From Verrucomicrobiota bacterium (GTDB lineage: Bacteria > Verrucomicrobiota > Verrucomicrobiia > JADLBR01): 64,000 nucleotides of DNA. The stretch spans positions 1-64,000 of the forward strand of contig JAKQKQ010000174.1 in the NCBI GenBank assembly GCA_029560585.1, given 5' to 3'. This document shows, piece by piece, positions 53,592 through 63,183 of the stretch (positions are counted from its first letter, which is position 1; every line of letters begins with the position of its first letter). Made by a program: the position numbers and the translations under genes. Below the pieces are notes generated by a model. The model made no database searches. It saw only the letters and a list, made by a program, of their open reading frames with translations, and had not been told where the DNA came from.

Positions 53592-53782
53592 CCGATTAAT
53601 GATACGACGCCGTGCGGGCCCGCGCAATGGGGATGAGGATTCGCATGCGCGATGCTGCCCAGCGTATGCCCCGCGGTCGGCTACGAGAATCTCCTGGCTG
53701 GTGCGCCCCGCCTTTGACCTCCGCGACGCACGGCGGTATCCTGTTGGGCCACGGGGCGACCAAGAATCCCTCAGATCGAACC

Positions 53783-54895
53783 TTGAAGTGTGACGTCCTC
53801 ATCGTCGGTGCCGGTTTTGCCGGGGCCGTGCTGGCAGAACGCATCGCCTCGCAGATGGGGAGGCGGTGCACGGTCGTCGATCGCCGGGATCACATAGGGG
53901 GCAATGCATTCGACCGGTATGATGGCGCGGGGGTCCTGATCCATCCCTGCGGTCCCCATTACTTTCACACGAATTCCGACCGCATCGTCGAGTACCTGTC
54001 CCAATTCACCGATTGGCGCCCGGTGGAATTCAGGGTGCTTTCGTATGCCGGGGGGAGATATTGGCAGTTTCCCATCAATCTCAATACGTTCGAGCAAATC
54101 CTCGGGCGTCCCTCGACACCCGGGGAGATGGAGGCCACGCTGGCCCGGTGGCGGATCCCCATCGAGAACCCGAAGAATTCAGAAGAGATGATCCTGTCGC
54201 AGGTGGGCCCCCGGCTCTACGAGATGTTTTTCAAGAAATACACCCGCAAGCAATGGCGGCGTGATCCCAGCGAACTGGACCCCGCGGTCTGCGGGCGCAT
54301 CCCGGTCCGCACCACCCGCGACGATCGCTACCTGTCCGATAGATTTCAGGCGCTGCCCAGGGACGGGTACGCCACCATGTTCCGTCGCATGCTGGATCAC
54401 CCGCTGATCGAAGTCCGCACCGGCGTGGATTTTCGCGACATCCGGTCGGCGGCGAAGTGGAACCATCTGATCTATACTGGCCCCATCGATGAGTATTACG
54501 GGCACGTTTTCGGCCCGTTGCCCTACCGGACGCTGCGGTTCGAGAACGAGACACTCGCCGAGGAGTTTCATCTGCCCGCGATGCAGGTCAACTATCCGGG
54601 CGACGAACCCTTCACCCGCGTCGTGGAAATCAAGCGAGCCACGGGGCAGAAGATCCCCGTCACCACCATCGTGCGCGAGTTTCCCGAAGATTACGGACCG
54701 GGGAAGGAACCCTATTACCCGGTTCCCGCGTCCGACGCCCGCGCCCAGTACCTCCGTTACGCGGATCTCGCCGCGCGGGAACCCGGCGTTTCCTTCGTTG
54801 GCCGTCTCGCCGCCTATCGCTATTGCAACATGGACCAGGTCGTCGGAATGGCGCTTGCAGAGTTCGATGGGCTGAAGGAACGAAAGCCCGGATGA
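53783..54895 (+). CDS. glf: UDP-galactopyranose mutase
   Basis: About 370 residues. It interconverts UDP-galactopyranose and UDP-galactofuranose with FAD. The FAD site KCDVLIVGAGFAGAVLAERIA begins at residue 2, and RDHIGGNAFD, GPHYFHTNS, NLNTFEQILG, EPYYPVPA and GRLAAYRYCNMDQV are family motifs. A TTG at 53783 is chosen because it gives the canonical Glf N-terminus; the frame is open to 53612 but that stretch is unconserved. This implies galactofuranose in the surface glycan. It opens the plus-strand glycan cluster, with 347 bases before the next gene. Confidence 0.92.
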   Translation: MKCDVLIVGAGFAGAVLAERIASQMGRRCTVVDRRDHIGGNAFDRYDGAGVLIHPCGPHYFHTNSDRIVEYLSQFTDWRPVEFRVLSYAGGRYWQFPINLNTFEQILGRPSTPGEMEATLARWRIPIENPKNSEEMILSQVGPRLYEMFFKKYTRKQWRRDPSELDPAVCGRIPVRTTRDDRYLSDRFQALPRDGYATMFRRMLDHPLIEVRTGVDFRDIRSAAKWNHLIYTGPIDEYYGHVFGPLPYRTLRFENETLAEEFHLPAMQVNYPGDEPFTRVVEIKRATGQKIPVTTIVREFPEDYGPGKEPYYPVPASDARAQYLRYADLAAREPGVSFVGRLAAYRYCNMDQVVGMALAEFDGLKERKPG

Positions 54896-55242: not shown

Positions 55243-56913
55243 ATGACCCACCCTCAGACAGCGATCATTTTGGCGGCAGGGGCCCCGCCTCCATCGCTCA
55301 TCTCCATCTATGGGAAGACGTGCTGCGCCATGCTCCCCATCCGCGGCAGACCGGCCATCCATCGGTCCCTTGGCTACCTCGCGCAACTGGGCATCCGGCG
55401 GGCCATCGTGGGTGTGCGGCCGGAGGAGACGCGGCTGCCGGAGTTTCTCGCACACAGCTTTGGTCAGCGCGTCGAGATAGTCGTGCGTCGCATCCCGGAA
55501 GATCGCGGGCCGGGCTATTCGCTGTTGCAGTGCCTTGATGCGTGGGCGTCGGACGCGCGGTCGGAACAGGGCGTGCTGGTCGTGCTCGGCGACACCCTCT
55601 TTCGTCTGGAAAACGACTCTCGGGAACTCCTCGGGGAAAGCTTTGTGCTGACGGGACCCGTCGAGGATTCCGAGCGGTGGTGCCTCGCGGAGGTGGACGC
55701 CGATGGACGCGTCACGAGACTGGAGGACAAGCCGCGGTCGAATGTCCCCGGTCTCCCGGCGCTCATAGGTGTCTATGGCCTGAATCCGGCGCGGGACGCC
55801 ATGGATGCACTGGCGGCCGAGGCGGTCGCCGGCAGCCCATCCATCCAGCTCCGCCACGCGTTGCGGCCCTATATTGAATCGGGGCGCCTGCGGGCCCACA
55901 CCGCGGCCGAGTGGACCGATTGCGGCAACCTGGACCGCTATAACGAGGCGCGGCGGCGAGCGCTGCCGGCACGCGAGTTCAATGAACTGAGCATCGACCC
56001 TCTCAGGGGCACGATCACAAAACGCAGCCGTAATCGCGCGAAGTTCCTCAACGAGATCAACTACTACCGCTTGCTGCCCCCTGACCTCTCGATCTTCTTC
56101 CCGAGGCTGGTCAGTTTTGGCATCGCGCCCGACGACACTTTTCTGACCCTGGAGTACTACGGGTACCCGACGCTGTCCGAGATGTGGCTCTTCGAGGGAT
56201 TTGGGCCCGGCTTCTGGCAGCGCACCTTCCGCAAGCTTGGGCAGATCATCGATTGTTTCGCCAAGCACACGGCCGAGCTGTCCCCGGGGGCGGCGGAGGC
56301 GTTATACTGGCGCAAGACGCTGGACAGGATCGCCGCATGGTCGTCCCAGGGCGCCGAGTTCCAGAATCTGGTGGCGGCCCCCACGCTCACGCTGGATGGC
56401 GTGGTGCTGGAGGGATGGCCGCGCCTCCAGGCCGCGCTCGAGCCGCGCGTGCGACAACTGTGCGCGCGAACACAGGCGGCGATCATCCACGGCGACCTGT
56501 GCTTCCCCAACATCCTTTTCGATCCCGTCAACGATCTTTTCAAATTCATCGATCCCCGCGGCAGTTTCGGCGATGCGGGCATCTACGGCGACCTCCGCTA
56601 CGACGTCGCCAAACTCCTCCACTCCATCGACGGGGCCTACGATTGCCTGATCCAAGATCTTTTCCGTCTCGATGGGGAGGGCGGGGTATTTCGGCTCGAC
56701 GTTTACCACCCGTCGAACCGCCCCGAGGTCACGGGGGCGTTCTGGGAGGCGTTGCGGGGTCGTTTCCGCCGCGATGAGATCCGGTTCATCGAGGGGCTGC
56801 TGTTCGTGAGCATGACGCCGTTGCACGCGGATTCGCCGCAACGCCAGAAGGCTCTGTTCTTGACAGGGGTGCGCATTCTCAACGAGGTTCTGGGCCATGA
56901 GAATATGCCTTGA
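55243..56913 (+). CDS. Nucleotidyltransferase fused to an APH/choline-kinase-like kinase
   Basis: 556 residues. Residues about 1-245 are a sugar-nucleotidyltransferase fold: TAIILAAG start, LVVLGDTLFR metal Asp, TDCGNLDRYNEA near 227. However, the signature loop GxGTRxxPxxxxxPK is replaced by APPPSLISIYGK. Residues about 260-545 are an aminoglycoside/choline-kinase-like domain with HGDLCFPNILFD (catalytic Asp about 417) and metal DPRGSFGD near 436. One polypeptide could thus phosphorylate a sugar or alcohol and activate it with a nucleotide. It overlaps the HAD gene by 17 bases and begins a tightly coupled block. Substrate unknown; analogy with LicA/LicC-type phosphocholine systems is only structural. 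Confidence 0.82.
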   Translation: MTHPQTAIILAAGAPPPSLISIYGKTCCAMLPIRGRPAIHRSLGYLAQLGIRRAIVGVRPEETRLPEFLAHSFGQRVEIVVRRIPEDRGPGYSLLQCLDAWASDARSEQGVLVVLGDTLFRLENDSRELLGESFVLTGPVEDSERWCLAEVDADGRVTRLEDKPRSNVPGLPALIGVYGLNPARDAMDALAAEAVAGSPSIQLRHALRPYIESGRLRAHTAAEWTDCGNLDRYNEARRRALPAREFNELSIDPLRGTITKRSRNRAKFLNEINYYRLLPPDLSIFFPRLVSFGIAPDDTFLTLEYYGYPTLSEMWLFEGFGPGFWQRTFRKLGQIIDCFAKHTAELSPGAAEALYWRKTLDRIAAWSSQGAEFQNLVAAPTLTLDGVVLEGWPRLQAALEPRVRQLCARTQAAIIHGDLCFPNILFDPVNDLFKFIDPRGSFGDAGIYGDLRYDVAKLLHSIDGAYDCLIQDLFRLDGEGGVFRLDVYHPSNRPEVTGAFWEALRGRFRRDEIRFIEGLLFVSMTPLHADSPQRQKALFLTGVRILNEVLGHENMP

Positions 56914-57286
56914 TATCGACGGGGTCATCTGTCGGCTCCGCACCGCCGGGGAGACGTACGCCGACCTGCTTCCGGTCGCGGGCGCCGTGGAACGCATGAG
57001 GAGCCTGAAGGATGCGGGCCATTACATCATCCTGCAGACCGCGCGCCACATGAAGACCTGCGGTGGCAACGTGGGCCTGACCGTCGCGCGCCAAGGGAAG
57101 ACCCTGCTCGATTGGCTCGAGCGTCACGGCGTCCCCTATGACGAGATCTGGTTTGGGAAACCCCAGGCCGATGTCTATATCGACGACAATGGATACCGCT
57201 TCGAATCCTGGGACAATGTCGTGCCGGACGGAAGCAATCTGCCCGTGAACCGGGAGAAAGCCCTCGCGGGAGAAGCGCCACGGTGA
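56897..57286 (+). CDS. HAD-like capsule-biosynthesis phosphatase
   Basis: 129 residues. The HAD motif I is CLDIDGVIC (Asp 6, Asp 8), followed by TARHMKTCGGNVG and the motif IV-like ADVYIDDNGYRF. This short cap-less form is found in capsule and LPS gene clusters next to nucleotidyltransferases and kinases, where it is annotated as a capsular-biosynthesis phosphatase. It overlaps the fusion gene upstream by 17 bases and the methyltransferase downstream by 4 bases (GTGA). Confidence 0.85.
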   Translation: MRICLDIDGVICRLRTAGETYADLLPVAGAVERMRSLKDAGHYIILQTARHMKTCGGNVGLTVARQGKTLLDWLERHGVPYDEIWFGKPQADVYIDDNGYRFESWDNVVPDGSNLPVNREKALAGEAPR

Positions 57287-58023
57287 CACCCCAACGTTTC
57301 GCCGAAGCCCAGCGCGCCGAGGCGGTCCACCACCGCGAGGCATGGACGCACCTGCACGTGGGCCCGCTGCCCCATGTCCAGAGCATCGTCGACTACAGGT
57401 ACTGGCTGGAATCGTACTATCGGACCGTGCTGATGTTCTTCGGTTTTGGCGTGGAATGGTTCCAGGGCCGCAGCGTCATCGAGATCGGCAGCGGCCCGTT
57501 CGGGGCGGTGGCCTGCCTGCCCCCCGGGGATCGGGTTGCGGTGGATCCGCTGATGGACGAATTTGCGGAATACATGAGACCGCAGTGGACCGACGGGGTC
57601 GTTCGGCTGACGGCGCGCGGTGAATGCCTGCCCCTGCCCGACGAACGATTCGACGCGGCGATCATGATCAACTGCCTCGACCACACCGATCGACCCGACA
57701 AAGTCCTGCGCGAGCTCGCGAGGGTCACGCGGAGGGGCGGCAAACTTTTTTTCATGAACAACGTCAAGTCCCGCGTCGGTTGCCTCATGGCCAAGCTGGG
57801 CGAGGCGCTGAGGATCCGGAAGCTGATGGAGGTGTACCACCCCCATGCGTTCACCAGCGCTTCGGCGATACGGCTGATGGCCTCGGCCGGTTGGCGCCTC
57901 CAGGGCAGTGCGTGGTCGCGGGCGCGCCTGGAGAGCGAGCACCGCAAGCTCTCCTGGAAGGGCCGCCTGCGTTTGCTTCTCAACGGCGAGAGCGCATTCT
58001 ATGGGCTCTTCGAACGCACATGA
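57283..58023 (+). CDS. SAM-dependent methyltransferase
   Basis: 246 residues, class I Rossmann methyltransferase. The SAM loop is VIEIGSGPFGAVACLPPGDRVAVDPL (about 65-90), and MINCLDHTDRPDKVLRELARVTRRGGKLFF contains the post-II and III motifs. The GTG start overlaps the HAD stop (GTGA), and the stop overlaps the next ATG (ATGA). By context it modifies the same glycan precursor or decoration; O- or N-methylation cannot be told apart. Confidence 0.88.
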   Translation: MTPQRFAEAQRAEAVHHREAWTHLHVGPLPHVQSIVDYRYWLESYYRTVLMFFGFGVEWFQGRSVIEIGSGPFGAVACLPPGDRVAVDPLMDEFAEYMRPQWTDGVVRLTARGECLPLPDERFDAAIMINCLDHTDRPDKVLRELARVTRRGGKLFFMNNVKSRVGCLMAKLGEALRIRKLMEVYHPHAFTSASAIRLMASAGWRLQGSAWSRARLESEHRKLSWKGRLRLLLNGESAFYGLFERT

Positions 58024-58784
58024 AACCCGACCTCACAATCGTCATCCCCATGGCGGGGATGGGAAGCCGGTTTCGGGCGGCTGGCTACACCGAGCCCAAG
58101 CCGCTCATTCCGGTGATCGACAGGCCGATGTACGCCTGGGCCGTCGATAGCCTCCCGGTGGAGCACGGCACTCGCCTGATCTTCGTTCTCCTGCGGTCCC
58201 ACCCCGGATTCGAAGCCCTGCGGGGCGACGTCCTCTCCCGTTATTCCGCGCGTCAACCGGTGATTTTCGAAGCGGCCAAGCCCACCCGCGGGCAAGCCGA
58301 GACGGTCTTGGCTGCCCGGGCCCACATCGATAACGACAGGCCGCTCCTGATCCACAACGCGGACACCGCGTTCGATGCCGATCCGAATTGGGTTCGCTCG
58401 GCCGTCGAATCGGGGGCTGATGGGGCGCTGCTCGTATTCCAATCGCAGGAGTCTCGCTGGAGCTATTCCCGCGAGGGGCCGGACGGCTGGGTCGCGGAAG
58501 TCCGCGAGAAGAAGGTCGTCTCATCGTGGGCGTCCACTGGCTCGTACTGGTTTCGTCGCGGGGCGCAGTTCGTGCGGCTGGCCGATGAGGCGATCCGTGA
58601 AGACAGGCGAGAGGGCAACGAGTTTTATGTCGGCCCCTTGTACAACGAACTGATCGCGCGAGGTGGCAGGGTCCGGAACTACGCCATACGGCGGCTCTAT
58701 TGCATGGGAACCCCCGAGGACCTGGCCGCCACACTCACTTTGCTGCGGGAAACAGGCGGTCGCCCCGCGGCGGTAGGCGCATGA
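58020..58784 (+). CDS. Sugar-phosphate nucleotidyltransferase
   Basis: 254 residues. The canonical signature VIPMAGMGSRFRAAGYTEPKPLIPVIDRPM is at residues 8-37 and the metal motif HNADTAFDAD near 115. Thus, unlike the fusion protein at 55243, this enzyme has a standard nucleotide-binding loop. It should activate a sugar-1-phosphate or polyol phosphate to an NDP derivative. ATGA overlaps on both sides couple it to the methyltransferase and the GT2 gene. Confidence 0.88.
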   Translation: MKPDLTIVIPMAGMGSRFRAAGYTEPKPLIPVIDRPMYAWAVDSLPVEHGTRLIFVLLRSHPGFEALRGDVLSRYSARQPVIFEAAKPTRGQAETVLAARAHIDNDRPLLIHNADTAFDADPNWVRSAVESGADGALLVFQSQESRWSYSREGPDGWVAEVREKKVVSSWASTGSYWFRRGAQFVRLADEAIREDRREGNEFYVGPLYNELIARGGRVRNYAIRRLYCMGTPEDLAATLTLLRETGGRPAAVGA

Positions 58785-59722
58785 CGGGCACGGAGACGAG
58801 CGACACCATGACCGGCAATGCCGAAACCCGTGTCTGGGCCGAGGTCGTCTGCCCCGTGCGCAACGGCGGCGAACCTTTCGCCCGCACGCTGCGCTCCATC
58901 GCCCAGCTGAGATGCCCTCGGCCAGTCCGCCTGCTTATCAGCGACAATCGATCGACCGATGGGACGCCCTGGCGGCACCGGCTCGACGAGATCGTGAACA
59001 TGCCCGTCCGCGTCATCTCGACCCCTGAGTCCTTTGGTCGTGTCGAACATTGGAATTGGGCGTTCCAACAGATCCAGGCCGACTGGATCAAGCCGCTGTT
59101 TGTCGGGGACGCCGTCATGCCGGAATACTTCGAGCGTTTCGAGGAAGCCTCCCGGCGTCATCCCCGCGCCGGCCTGCTCTTCTGCCGGAACAAGGTCCTC
59201 CATCCCGACAAGTCGCGCGTGACCACCGCGAAATTCCCCGACGGCGAGATCGGGTTGGAGGAATTCGTCGAACTCACACTGCGCCCAGCGGTTTTCGTCG
59301 GCGGGTTGAGCGGGGTCATGGTGCGCGCCGATGCCTTGCGCGAGTGCCTGCCCTTTTCCGAACGGCACCCGTGGACTGCCGACGCGCGGTTTTACCGGGA
59401 CGTTGCGAGGGCCTGCCCAATGGTGGGCATCAAGGAGGTGCTATGCGTGCTCGACCAGACGATTGCCCGATTGAGCGCCTCCGTCCGCGCGATCGGGCCG
59501 AGCCTTCGGGAGGAATGGGCGTTCATGGCCGAGCTGCAGAAGGAGGCGGGGGTTCCCGCGGTGGGGGCGTTTCGCCATCGCGCCGCCGTACTCGGCCTGC
59601 TCGCGCTCGCCAAGTACGGGCGGCATGTCCTGCCCGAGACGCTGAGGCGTGCGATGGGCAAAGTGTGCCGCAGGTTTGGTCCTGGTGACGGGGCGGGGCA
59701 GGGGAGCGGTGAAACGGATTGA
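58781..59722 (+). CDS. Family 2 glycosyltransferase
   Basis: 313 residues, GT-A fold. It opens AEVVCPVRNGGEPFARTLRSIAQLRCPRPVRLLISDNRSTDGT, typical of GT2, followed by the WIKPLFVGDAVMPEYF metal-binding region and a C-terminal W..DARFYRDVA segment. It overlaps the nucleotidyltransferase stop by 4 bases and the flippase start by 14 bases. Donor and acceptor are unknown; membership of the block suggests it uses its product. Confidence 0.87.
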   Translation: MTGTETSDTMTGNAETRVWAEVVCPVRNGGEPFARTLRSIAQLRCPRPVRLLISDNRSTDGTPWRHRLDEIVNMPVRVISTPESFGRVEHWNWAFQQIQADWIKPLFVGDAVMPEYFERFEEASRRHPRAGLLFCRNKVLHPDKSRVTTAKFPDGEIGLEEFVELTLRPAVFVGGLSGVMVRADALRECLPFSERHPWTADARFYRDVARACPMVGIKEVLCVLDQTIARLSASVRAIGPSLREEWAFMAELQKEAGVPAVGAFRHRAAVLGLLALAKYGRHVLPETLRRAMGKVCRRFGPGDGAGQGSGETD

Positions 59723-61124
59723 TCTGCCGGTGCGGCGATGGGTGGAGAGCCATCCGGCCCGCGCCGGAACGCTGGCCACGTGGGCCGTTCAAGGGGGCGC
59801 GCTCGTCGCTCAACTCGCGCTGGTCCCGTTCCTGCTCCGGCATATCGGGGCGGACCGGATGGGGCAGTGGTTTTATCTTCTCGGCGCCTCGGTGTTCCTG
59901 CAGGTAGGCGATTTCGGTTTTTCCCAGACGATCACCCGACAGATTAGCTATCTCCTTCAGATCAGGCGGAGGAGCGGCGATCGACACGGGTTTTTCCTGA
60001 GGGTGCCGGGGCTGCGCGGGTTGGGCGCCGTGCTCGCGGCCCACCGATGGCTCGCCTGGCGTGGCGCCCTCGCCACGGTCGGTGCCGGGATCCTCATGGA
60101 CACATGTCTCCTCTTCCACGGCGCTTTTCGGCGGAGTCCCGATCTTGCGGTCTGCTGGTACGCGCTGGTGTTGGCGGCGGTCCTCTCGTGCGTTGCCCGC
60201 GTGAATGCCTCATACCTCACCGGCGTCCTGCGTCCCTATCACGAGCGTGTCGGTTTCGGGTTCGGCTTGGTTGTTCAATACGCGTTTTCGTTCTTGGGCG
60301 TGCTGGTCGAGCCCTCGGTGGCCGCGCTTGGCGCGGCCTCTGTCGCGGGGGCCATCGTTCAGGGCGCGTGCTGGCGATGGTTGGCGGCCGACCGCCCGAA
60401 TGCCGTCGCCGCCCGCCGGACGATCACCGCACGGCTTTGGAGGCTGTGCGCGCCGCAGGGCTCCGCAACGCTTGCGGGTTCGGTCGCGTTCCAGTCGAAC
60501 CAGATCCTGCTCGGCCAGATCACCTCCGCCACGATGGTGGCCATGTTGGCGCTCCCGACGAGGATTGCCGCGGTGGCGCTCGAGGGGCTCAGGGCCACTT
60601 TCATGCCCCAGGTCAGTTTCATCGGCAGGGACATCGGCTCGCATGACGCCCGGGCCATCCTGGTGCGCATCTATCGCGTTTTCGCGTTCGTTCTAGGGGC
60701 GACGGTCGGTGCCTACGCGGTCTTCGCGCTCGCGGGTCCCGCGTTCATACACTGGTGGGCCCGCGGCGAGCTCGATGCCCCCTTTGCCGTCTTCCTGCTG
60801 CTCGCCATTTTGAACATTGTCGTCTGCCTGGAAAATTTGGCCGCAGGCTTCATCACGGCACATGGCGTGATGCCTTTCGCGGTGGTGGGTTGGCTCGCCG
60901 CGATTTCGAATGTCGCGCTGATGTTCGTGCTCATTCCCCGATATGGCCTGGCGGGAAGCGTCGCCTCGACCCTCATCGCGCAATTCGTGTTTTCCACCAC
61001 GTACACCTTTTACCTCTTCTGGCGGCGGCTGCGATATTGGCACGCGCAAGACCCCGGATTCGCGTGGCGCGACCTGTGGCCCATTCGCCGGGAAGCCCGC
61101 CCGCCGGAGGACCGCCGCCCATGA
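59709..61124 (+). CDS. Polysaccharide flippase, Wzx/MVF superfamily
   Basis: 471 residues, about 12-14 membrane helices, resembling O-antigen/polysaccharide flippases (Wzx/RfbX-like): ATWAVQGGALVAQLALVPFLLRHIG at the N-terminus, SVAFQSNQILLGQ in the middle and YGLAGSVASTLIAQFVFSTTY near the end. It should move lipid-linked glycan units across the inner membrane. The GTG at 59709 is chosen because GGGGAG lies just before it. It overlaps the GT2 gene by 14 bases. Confidence 0.86.
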   Translation: MKRIDLPVRRWVESHPARAGTLATWAVQGGALVAQLALVPFLLRHIGADRMGQWFYLLGASVFLQVGDFGFSQTITRQISYLLQIRRRSGDRHGFFLRVPGLRGLGAVLAAHRWLAWRGALATVGAGILMDTCLLFHGAFRRSPDLAVCWYALVLAAVLSCVARVNASYLTGVLRPYHERVGFGFGLVVQYAFSFLGVLVEPSVAALGAASVAGAIVQGACWRWLAADRPNAVAARRTITARLWRLCAPQGSATLAGSVAFQSNQILLGQITSATMVAMLALPTRIAAVALEGLRATFMPQVSFIGRDIGSHDARAILVRIYRVFAFVLGATVGAYAVFALAGPAFIHWWARGELDAPFAVFLLLAILNIVVCLENLAAGFITAHGVMPFAVVGWLAAISNVALMFVLIPRYGLAGSVASTLIAQFVFSTTYTFYLFWRRLRYWHAQDPGFAWRDLWPIRREARPPEDRRP

Positions 61125-61185: not shown

Positions 61186-62202
61186 ATGATCACGTTCCTG
61201 GTCGTCGGTCGCAACGATAGCTACGGCATCAACCTCCACAAGCGCACCGCGCTCAGCCTCAATTTTTTTGCATCGCTGTGTCAGGAGGAGAGCGATGAGA
61301 TCGTCTACGTGGACTGCAATACCCCGCACCACGAGCAGACGCTCGTCGAGGCCATCGCCGACACGCTCACGCCAGAGGCGCGTCGCCGGATCAAGGCCTA
61401 TCGGATATCCGGCGAGCTGATGCGGCGGGCGATCGGCGACACGCCGTTGCCTTTCTCCGACGAGCTTTCGCGCAACGTCGGGCTACGCCGCAGCAATCCC
61501 GCCAACCCGTGGGTGCTTTCCACCAATTGCGACGTGCTGCTGCACCCGTTCACGGGACGCTCGTTCGTCGATCTGCTGGAGATTCTCGAACAACGCTTCT
61601 ACGTTTGCCCGAGGATATCGATCCCCATCCCGCAGTGGCAGTGCCTCCCGAGGATGGACACCGCCGCCATGCGCTCCTTCTGCGATGCGGTCGTGCTGGC
61701 TGGCTTTCGCTATCCTCCCGAAAAAGGGGCATCGTGGCTTCGTTTTGATTCCGTGGGCGATTTCCAACTCGCTCCGCGAGCCCAGTGGTTCGCCATCCAC
61801 GGCTGCGAGGAGGGGATGAAACTCTGGGGTCACAGCGATGCCAATAATTCGCGGCGCCTCAACCTGCTCAACGGCGGGGGGACGACGCCGGACATCGGCG
61901 GGCACTTTCTGGTGATGCACCTTGACCACAACCCGGATCAGAAGGTGGCCCATACCCACACGCTGCCGCACAACGATTGGAAACAGTGGGTGGAAGACGT
62001 GTCCGACCCGGTGTCCAAGAACCCGGACGATTGGGGGCTGCGCGACATCGACCTTCCCGTCATCCGGCTCGAGGCCATGGCGCCCGCGGCGATCTTGAAA
62101 ACGCATCGGCGACCGCGGAGCTGGTTCCGGCAGGTCCGCCTATCGCTCGTCGCCGGATTCAACCGTCGGGTGAGCCGGATCTTAAACCGGATTAAGCCCT
62201 GA
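61186..62202 (+). CDS. Putative glycosyltransferase, GT-A-like
   Basis: 338 residues. It opens MITFLVVGRNDSYGINLHKRTALSLNFFASLCQEESDEIVYVD, which resembles GT-A nucleotide-binding starts; NPWVLSTNCDVLLHPF may hold the metal-binding Asp. The family is not one I can name with confidence. An SD-like AAGGCG precedes the ATG at 61186, 61 bases after the flippase. The last 21 bases overlap the convergent STELLO-like gene. The context supports a glycosyltransferase role. Confidence 0.72.
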   Translation: MITFLVVGRNDSYGINLHKRTALSLNFFASLCQEESDEIVYVDCNTPHHEQTLVEAIADTLTPEARRRIKAYRISGELMRRAIGDTPLPFSDELSRNVGLRRSNPANPWVLSTNCDVLLHPFTGRSFVDLLEILEQRFYVCPRISIPIPQWQCLPRMDTAAMRSFCDAVVLAGFRYPPEKGASWLRFDSVGDFQLAPRAQWFAIHGCEEGMKLWGHSDANNSRRLNLLNGGGTTPDIGGHFLVMHLDHNPDQKVAHTHTLPHNDWKQWVEDVSDPVSKNPDDWGLRDIDLPVIRLEAMAPAAILKTHRRPRSWFRQVRLSLVAGFNRRVSRILNRIKP

Positions 62203-63183
62203 GATATCGGCGATCCAAGCCCGGACCAGATCGAGTTCCTTGTCTGGCAAGAGATCCATTTCGACGAGCGCCTCGTAGCAGCGAAGCAGGTTTTGGCAGA
62301 CCGTCCCGATCTGGCGACCGGCATCCAGCGTTTTCTTCTCAAGCGCCCTGCGGATGCGGTCATTGTTGAGGTAACCTGGGATCTCCTGCTCAAAATCCTG
62401 GAGCAGTCGATGCTCGTTGCGGTTCTGGTACATGGTCGGCCCCTGGAACGCCAGGCGGGAATCCATCTCCCAGAGGCATCGCTGTGCGACCAGTGATCGC
62501 CAGATGTCGGTCATGCGAAAGGAGCAGAATGATGGCAGGTACATCAGCGGGAACGCCGGTTGAAAGAAGGTCGTGTTCTGGCTGTTGAAGGGGCACCAGC
62601 AACCCGGACCTAGCGCGATGGCCTCGCGCGCCACGAAATCGACCGGGAGTTGATGGACCAGTCGATAGATCGCATCGACATCTGGATCACCGTTGGCCAG
62701 GCCCTGCTGGATGAGGCACTCAACGGGGGCCGCCTCGCCAAACGAGACCGGGTTGGAATCCCGGATCATCTCCAGGGGAAACCCGCGGGGCCAGATCGAA
62801 AGGCCGGGCGCGAATTCCCCGTAGGCGTTGACCCAGCCACTTCCGGTGGCCAGGCGGGCGTCGAGCCGGGGATTTCGTGGTCGCCAGAAGTCGGGCAGGG
62901 GGATGTTGTCATCGTCTGTTTCCACGATGGATCGGGCACCCTCCGATGCCGCGAGCAGATAGCCGAGGTTTTTCCGCGCGTAATGTCGCTCGGGCAAGAG
63001 GGACGCAATCTGAAAAGGCAGCGCGAGCTGCGATCCGATGTCTATGAAACGGGTCCCGGGCAGCGGGTATTCCTTGGGACCGGGCCTATCACCGATGACC
63101 CAAAGCGCACCGGAGGACAGTCCTTCGGCGATGGCCTTGGCCCCCTGGCTTGGGGGAAAAATCGTGGTGACAACAACATGCAT
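62182..63183 (-). CDS. STELLO/DUF288-family glycosyltransferase-like protein
   Basis: 333 residues with the DUF288/STELLO pattern: VVVTTIFPPSQGAKAI at the start, ERHYARKNLGYLLAASEGARSIVETDDDNIP (DDD metal motif about 88-90), FNSQNTTFF, and a later FRMTDIWRSLVAQRCLWE segment. In plants STELLO proteins are Golgi proteins that help cellulose synthase assembly and look like glycosyltransferases. Bacterial members are little studied and occur in surface-glycan loci. It is the only minus-strand gene in this cluster, convergent with 61186 and divergent from the GT4 gene, with only 20 bases between the two starts. Confidence 0.85.
   Translation of the reverse strand: MHVVVTTIFPPSQGAKAIAEGLSSGALWVIGDRPGPKEYPLPGTRFIDIGSQLALPFQIASLLPERHYARKNLGYLLAASEGARSIVETDDDNIPLPDFWRPRNPRLDARLATGSGWVNAYGEFAPGLSIWPRGFPLEMIRDSNPVSFGEAAPVECLIQQGLANGDPDVDAIYRLVHQLPVDFVAREAIALGPGCWCPFNSQNTTFFQPAFPLMYLPSFCSFRMTDIWRSLVAQRCLWEMDSRLAFQGPTMYQNRNEHRLLQDFEQEIPGYLNNDRIRRALEKKTLDAGRQIGTVCQNLLRCYEALVEMDLLPDKELDLVRAWIADISGLNPV

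Follow-up and report, generated by a model that had tools for sequence, protein, structure and literature searches.

A kinase fused to an apparently silenced nucleotidyltransferase forms a conserved gene trio with a phosphatase and a second nucleotidyltransferase in surface-glycan loci

Results

The window analyzed here is a 64,000-nucleotide stretch of a Verrucomicrobiota bacterium (contig JAKQKQ010000174.1 of assembly GCA_029560585.1, positions 1 to 64,000; contig C287 of the 7.06-Mb draft genome) and contains a block of overlapping genes that begins with a fusion of a nucleotidyltransferase (NTase)-like domain to an APH-fold kinase. Comparison with related loci indicated that the conserved core of this block is three genes, encoding the NTase-kinase fusion, an EcbF/BcbF-like HAD phosphatase and a second nucleotidyltransferase (NTase2). 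From the motifs of the two NTases and their co-occurrence, we conclude that the N-terminal half of the fusion is probably a silenced NTase and that sugar activation would be performed by the neighboring NTase2.

The fusion is a protein of 556 amino acids (55243-56913, + strand; Pfam NTP_transf_3 / NTP_transferase plus APH) made up of an NTase-like N-half (55243..55962, +) and a small-molecule kinase C-half (55963..56913, +). An AlphaFold model of the fusion was confident throughout (pLDDT 93.8, pTM 0.92), and the top Foldseek matches of the N-half were all RmlA, indicating an RmlA fold. Its nearest relatives were sugar-1-phosphate nucleotidyltransferases (RmlA and archaeal GlmU-like enzymes), with much weaker similarity to the choline enzyme 1jyk. 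In RmlA-type enzymes, an Arg and a Lys of the loop G-x-G-x-R...PK hold the triphosphate. This motif is absent from the window N-half, in which the altered loop (codons 13-28, 55279-55326) reads LAAGAPPPSLISIYGKTCCAMLP (also delimited as AGAPPPSLISIYGKTCCAMLP), and the Lys of 'PK' is gone as well. A first-pass annotation of this DNA had described a fusion without GxGTR that nevertheless kept its metal residues, and this description was borne out, residues 116-118 being GDT and residues 224-228 WTDCG.

An alignment of 63 altered fusions was examined for the same residues. The loop Lys was retained in none (0/63), while the loop Arg column was occupied by Glu or Asp in 39 sequences, by Ser in 10 and by a basic residue in 4, none of which stands in a canonical motif. 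Retention elsewhere was nearly complete (D117, 60/63; K163, 55/63; W224, D226 and G228, 63/63 each), so that the metal Asp and the W-x-D-x-G motif are features of the family; the three D117 exceptions form a single Verrucomicrobia clade. We take these five residues, also on the basis of alignment, to be the equivalents of the metal and sugar-phosphate residues of RmlA-type enzymes. Loss of the triphosphate residues together with retention of the metal and sugar residues indicates that constraint has been maintained on only half of the active site, the other half being gone. As loss of the Arg and Lys is the norm in this family and is paired with a canonical NTase in an adjacent gene, the earlier proposal of an active fused NTase using an unusual nucleotide was not upheld. 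Homologues with a plainly inactive NTase half had been named as evidence against that proposal, and the altered fusions come close to being such homologues, their inactivity being judged from sequence.

NTase2 (58020..58784, +; NTP_transferase; PDB 4evw, E 1e-25) starts at an internal ATG within a longer open reading frame (ORF). Its canonical loop, AGMGSRF...PK, is intact, and R17 and K27 are invariant in the NTase2 alignment.

In order to relate loop state to gene content, each fusion was classed by its triphosphate loop and NTase2 was scored as present if located within 6 kb. NTase2 was detected in 81/85 loci having an altered loop or lacking the domain and in 0/6 loci having an intact loop (L010, L011, L036, L049, L054 and L077); two of the latter, L010 and L011, are phages, including the RB69 type. 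Fisher's test gave a p value of 3e-7, which is naive, the rows being related. Classing of L052, L073 and, in part, L075 was by regular expression at contig ends and did not affect the pattern. Among the exceptions, NTase2 was fused within a 773-amino-acid protein, with an additional fragment, in L030 and was a partial ORF in L041, while L089 lies at a contig end. Kinase-only relatives in three loci (L005, L012 and L064) retain both the HAD and NTase2, indicating that loci with NTase2 can do without the N-half, which is not needed for chemistry in these three.

The intact-loop fusions of two Clostridia (L054:8001-9641 and L077:7926-9578) are accompanied by neither HAD nor NTase2. The gene following each has a start resembling those of MGDG-synthase-like glycosyltransferases, and these fusions perhaps serve a glycolipid route from free sugar.

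Single-sequence scans of the genome and viral contigs detected no relatives; these were recovered with an alignment query. Querying GTDB genomes in this way gave at least 552 candidate stretches, from which 80 loci were retained, and the trio was clustered in nearly all of these. The bacterial loci belong to Verrucomicrobiota, Planctomycetota, Acidobacteriota, Myxococcota, Bacteroidota, Chloroflexota, Bacillota (including Clostridia), Pseudomonadota and Patescibacteria, and the archaeal loci to Thaumarchaeota, Lokiarchaeota (Asgard) and Halobacterium. Of 288 other genomes sampled within the phylum of the window, a single one (G045) had a relative above threshold; its three core genes follow the order of the window, without an intervening methyltransferase. 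Neighbors of the window fusion in a quick kinase tree likewise suggested that it belongs to Verrucomicrobiota. HAD and NTase2 are a single gene in seven loci (L027, L029, L032, L034, L040, L053 and L073). Plasmids of Citrobacter, Legionella, Phaeobacter, Escherichia coli, Variovorax and Caballeronia have the HAD, the NTase-kinase (or the kinase alone) and NTase2 adjacent to one another in capsule-like loci, which also carry WavE, Stealth or CDP-glycerol-type transferases. The first-pass annotation had predicted a dedicated pathway in which a kinase, a phosphatase and a nucleotidyltransferase yield an activated sugar, or something similar, destined for a surface glycan, and clustering of the trio across many phyla supports this part of it. 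The methyltransferase, which had been counted as a member of the set, had very weak matches only in other loci and falls outside the conserved core.

WavE-family proteins adjoin the module in 21 loci (L003-L092) and are a candidate transferase for its product. The capsule-like locus holding the module in E. coli (L007) is on the ST131 plasmid pMB9366_2; such a locus was detected on plasmids of 4/5426 complete E. coli genomes and on none of the chromosomes.

The catalytic set of the kinase half is complete, comprising K260, E271, HGDLCFPN at 416-423 (56488-56511) and IDPRG at 436-440 (56548-56562), and K260, E271, H416, D418, N423 and D437 show little or no variation across 53 homologues. The accompanying HAD and NTase2 suggest a sugar as the substrate of this kinase, with phosphorylation at the anomeric hydroxyl. 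A role in aminoglycoside resistance was dismissed on the basis of gene context and weak APH scores.

The HAD (129 amino acids; 56897..57286, +) is a capless phosphatase of the EcbF/BcbF (TIGR01689) kind, with PDB matches to 1xpj (E 4e-16) and 9iqw (E 2e-7), and all four HAD motifs were present in the alignment (DxD 6-8, T48, K88 and DD 96-97). It resembles the EcbF/BcbF capsule phosphatases, for which family we know of no assigned reaction, and matches TIGR01689 with an E of 4e-19; its 68.8 bits fall below the cut-off of 162, which is passed by the HAD of the E. coli relative L007 (197 bits). As the N-half lacks the NTase motif and the HAD lies below this cut-off, neither was classed as a plain member of its family.

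The arrangement of the block agreed with the first-pass annotation. Five ORFs occupy 55243-59722, with successive overlaps of 17, 4, 4 and 4 nucleotides in the order fusion, HAD, methyltransferase, NTase2 and GT2, and the family calls held (NTP_transf_3 plus APH; EcbF/BcbF-like HAD; Methyltransf_11; NTP_transferase; Glycos_transf_2). The accessory gene encodes an S-adenosylmethionine-dependent methyltransferase (57283..58023, +; Methyltransf_11), and the GT2 glycosyltransferase (58781..59722, +; Glycos_transf_2) is a candidate user of the product; a GT2 homologue adjoins the module (E 5e-54) in the closest relative, L013, which is 53% identical. A sixth gene encodes a Wzx-like polysaccharide flippase (59709..61124, +; Polysacc_synt, E 1e-5, just below the cut-off). 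This gene probably starts at the GTG at 59709, with AGGGGAG upstream, giving a 14-nucleotide overlap with GT2, and the coupled block would therefore extend past 59722 and include at least six genes. Upstream, a UDP-galactopyranose mutase gene (glf; 53612..54895, +; GLF, E 7e-70) provides the context of a surface glycan with galactofuranose, and glf was also found near the module in L006 and L009. The flippase gene is followed by a sugar-transfer-like gene (61186-62202) with no Pfam match, and a STELLO-family glycosyltransferase gene (62185-63183, -) converges on the block from the downstream side.

Discussion

We propose that the trio takes a sugar phosphate from central metabolism and converts it to a nucleotide-activated sugar. 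The APH-fold half would phosphorylate the sugar at the anomeric carbon and the HAD would strip the other phosphate, in either order, after which NTase2, rather than the fused N-half, would couple the sugar-1-phosphate to a nucleotide. The silenced N-half, having kept its metal and sugar-phosphate residues, would most likely sense substrate or product or act as a scaffold for the kinase. In this genome, GT2 and the flippase may then add the sugar, possibly in methylated form, to a surface glycan. The scheme is built on the observed gene order, motif states, co-occurrence and fold, with the reactions, their order and the regulatory role read from these, and as a whole, from trio to nucleoside diphosphate (NDP)-sugar through NTase2 with a silent sensor or scaffold, we consider it probable. 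More tentatively, and with clearly less than an even chance of being correct, the kinase may carry the silenced NTase as a built-in sensor of the sugar-1-phosphate or NDP-sugar of its own pathway, with a neighboring gene supplying the real NTase; this would constitute an undescribed, pseudoenzyme-gated route distributed from Asgard archaea to Clostridia.

Several observations weigh against this scheme. The N-half may still perform chemistry, given that D117, D226 and W224 are conserved. There is one clear exception to the association with NTase2, as Clostridium sp. DSM 8431 (L048, 7758-9416) has an altered-loop fusion and a HAD with no NTase2 nearby. The association may also rest on few independent events: in a quick kinase tree, the intact-loop rows were scattered with weak support, which is compatible with a single origin of the loop change. 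Furthermore, the loci were picked by similarity to the window protein, and hence intact forms are under-sampled.

A first alternative, which was the view of the first-pass annotation, is that both NTases function, each with its own compound or nucleotide, and that the fusion accepts an unusual nucleotide through a remodeled loop. Retention of D117, D226 and the sugar residues would be expected from this, and the altered loop has a conserved pattern of its own in parts of the family (e.g., PSAKLVPEELQ..GKLPA), arguing against random decay. However, the triphosphate Arg and Lys are lost, the Arg column is mainly acidic and the domain is missing from kinase-only loci that still have NTase2. The intact-loop homologue TH1_060 of phage Thanatos produced no UDP-xylose from xylose-1-phosphate with any of five nucleoside triphosphates, while TH1_063 did make UDP-xylose (PMC12838424); this null result is weak evidence because the sugar may have been the wrong one, and it calls for caution in interpreting the fusion by itself. 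We consider activity of both NTases unlikely.

Very unlikely, in our estimation, is that the N-half is a new enzyme, converting sugar phosphates or nucleotide sugars through a different reaction, such as metal-dependent hydrolysis or a transfer with an NDP-sugar as donor. The near-complete conservation of metal and sugar-side residues, with loss confined to the triphosphate side, would fit such a change, but sensing accounts for this conservation equally well, the domain can be lost (L005, L012 and L064) and we know of no precedent for such a reaction among proteins of this fold. It is similarly improbable that the compound is an activated, CDP-linked alcohol or polyol, as in the LicA/LicC or CDP-glycerol routes, rather than a sugar. 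CDP-glycerol-type transferases do adjoin some relatives (L006 and L007), choline kinases are among the APH-fold kinases and in S-SKS1 phages NTase2 is joined to RibB, which yields a four-carbon product; against this stand the closeness of the N-half to sugar-1-phosphate nucleotidyltransferases rather than 1jyk, the arabinose on the DNA of RB69-type phages with the intact form and the fusion of a phage NTase2 to a ribose/galactose isomerase.

Under the proposed scheme, our best guess for the substrate, held at somewhat short of even confidence, is a pentose or ketose phosphate, as jointly favored by the arabinose phages, the RibB- and RpiB-fused forms of NTase2 and the Pasteurella multocida capsule. 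A BcbF phosphatase belongs to the serogroup B capsule of P. multocida. This capsule contains arabinose in addition to mannose and galactose (PMC5698555). As judged from gene order, the RB69-type phage locus L010 encodes an intact fusion, a HAD and an arabinose-5-phosphate-isomerase-like protein; the DNA of RB69-type phages carries arabinose through a pathway described as unproven in 2018 (PMC6024577) and again in 2026 (PMC13390438).

Synechococcus phage S-SKS1 (L012:4568-5992) and viral contigs L093-L102 encode NTase2 as a fusion with RibB (3,4-dihydroxy-2-butanone-4-phosphate synthase), an enzyme that uses ribulose-5-phosphate. The RibB-fused NTase2 of S-SKS1-like cyanophages adjoins the kinase and HAD, and a transaldolase/FSA-like gene directly follows the HAD; this gene set is possibly a route to an unusual phage-made activated sugar. 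The NTase2 of Synechococcus phage Bellamy (L105:4992-6149) is fused to an RpiB/LacAB isomerase and lies beside HAD and PfkB-like proteins, while those of cyanophages S-CAM9 and B23 are fused to another HAD.

The absence of an isomerase adjoining the window trio weighs against the pentose or ketose guess. The phage arabinose-5-phosphate isomerase (SIS) had no matches in the window or in any of the other loci collected up to that point, the bacterial ones included, the search being confined to these stretches. Fructofuranose is present in the core of Vibrio cholerae and in some E. coli capsules. We do not claim NDP-fructofuranose as the product: activated fructose in this role was not named in the literature searched, and no such trio is apparent in the published description of the fructose-branched HS1 locus of Campylobacter jejuni. 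A capsule HAD phosphatase of C. jejuni, Cj1435, has been characterized.

NTase2 relatives also occur in another recurrent set, on plasmids of Azospirillum (L110:4123-11507) and Pseudomonas aeruginosa (L108:5998-8831). This set includes a glycerophosphodiester phosphodiesterase-like protein, a HAD and a second, short 'GT2', accompanied in Azospirillum by a class II aldolase and a uridine-kinase-like protein and in Pseudomonas by a cupin.

One of the closest described systems is the ORF53_52c module of RB69 (Mosigvirus phages), comprising an NTase-kinase fusion, a HAD and a SIS isomerase, for which a UDP-arabinose route has been proposed (PMC6024577). The two modules share the fusion architecture, a homologous kinase, the same HAD family (PDB 9iqw being nearly identical to the L010 HAD) and a proposed activated sugar, a pentose in RB69. 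The RB69 module differs in its intact NTase loop, lack of NTase2, arabinose-5-phosphate-isomerase-like gene and use of the product on DNA, and the two fusions are about 20% identical. The window has neither feature of the RB69 type, namely an intact loop without a second NTase and a SIS gene.

The best solved relatives of NTase2 and the HAD are, respectively, 4EVW, a nucleoside-diphosphate-sugar pyrophosphorylase, and 1XPJ, a HAD protein. Both come from V. cholerae, which suggests that this species may carry the module, and we know of no substrates for either protein. In the GDP-D-glycero-D-manno-heptose route, HddA (a GHMP kinase), GmhB (a HAD) and HddC (an NTase) act together. This set resembles the module in having an anomeric kinase, a capless HAD and a nucleotidyltransferase, but the kinase of the module is of the APH fold and carries a fused silent NTase, and the NTase of the module is of another type; no sedoheptulose-7-phosphate isomerase was present among the recurrent neighbor families of the module. 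Silenced pyrophosphorylase partners include the large subunit of plant ADP-glucose pyrophosphorylase and GMPPA, found beside GMPPB. Like the N-half, these are NTase paralogues without catalytic loop residues and act as regulatory partners of an active copy, as would be the case here; they are pyrophosphorylase subunits, whereas the silent copy in the window is fused to the pathway kinase.

Literature searches on EcbF/BcbF with a nucleotidyltransferase and on the V. cholerae wav cluster yielded nothing usable. The module consists of known families in an arrangement undescribed in the literature searched, which left out most subscription papers, and would represent a variant of nucleotide-sugar synthesis modules. 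It is common in the surface-glycan loci of very different microbes and has been little studied, its parts being labeled 'aminoglycoside phosphotransferase', 'GT2' or 'capsular biosynthesis protein'. If the proposed scheme is correct, the product of the module would account for a sugar in many capsules, and the association of loop state with NTase2 would enable annotators to separate silent from active NTase halves. A connection between surface glycans and the arabinose of phage DNA would follow as well, and the module would be an example, from bacteria and archaea, of a kinase with a fused pseudo-pyrophosphorylase.

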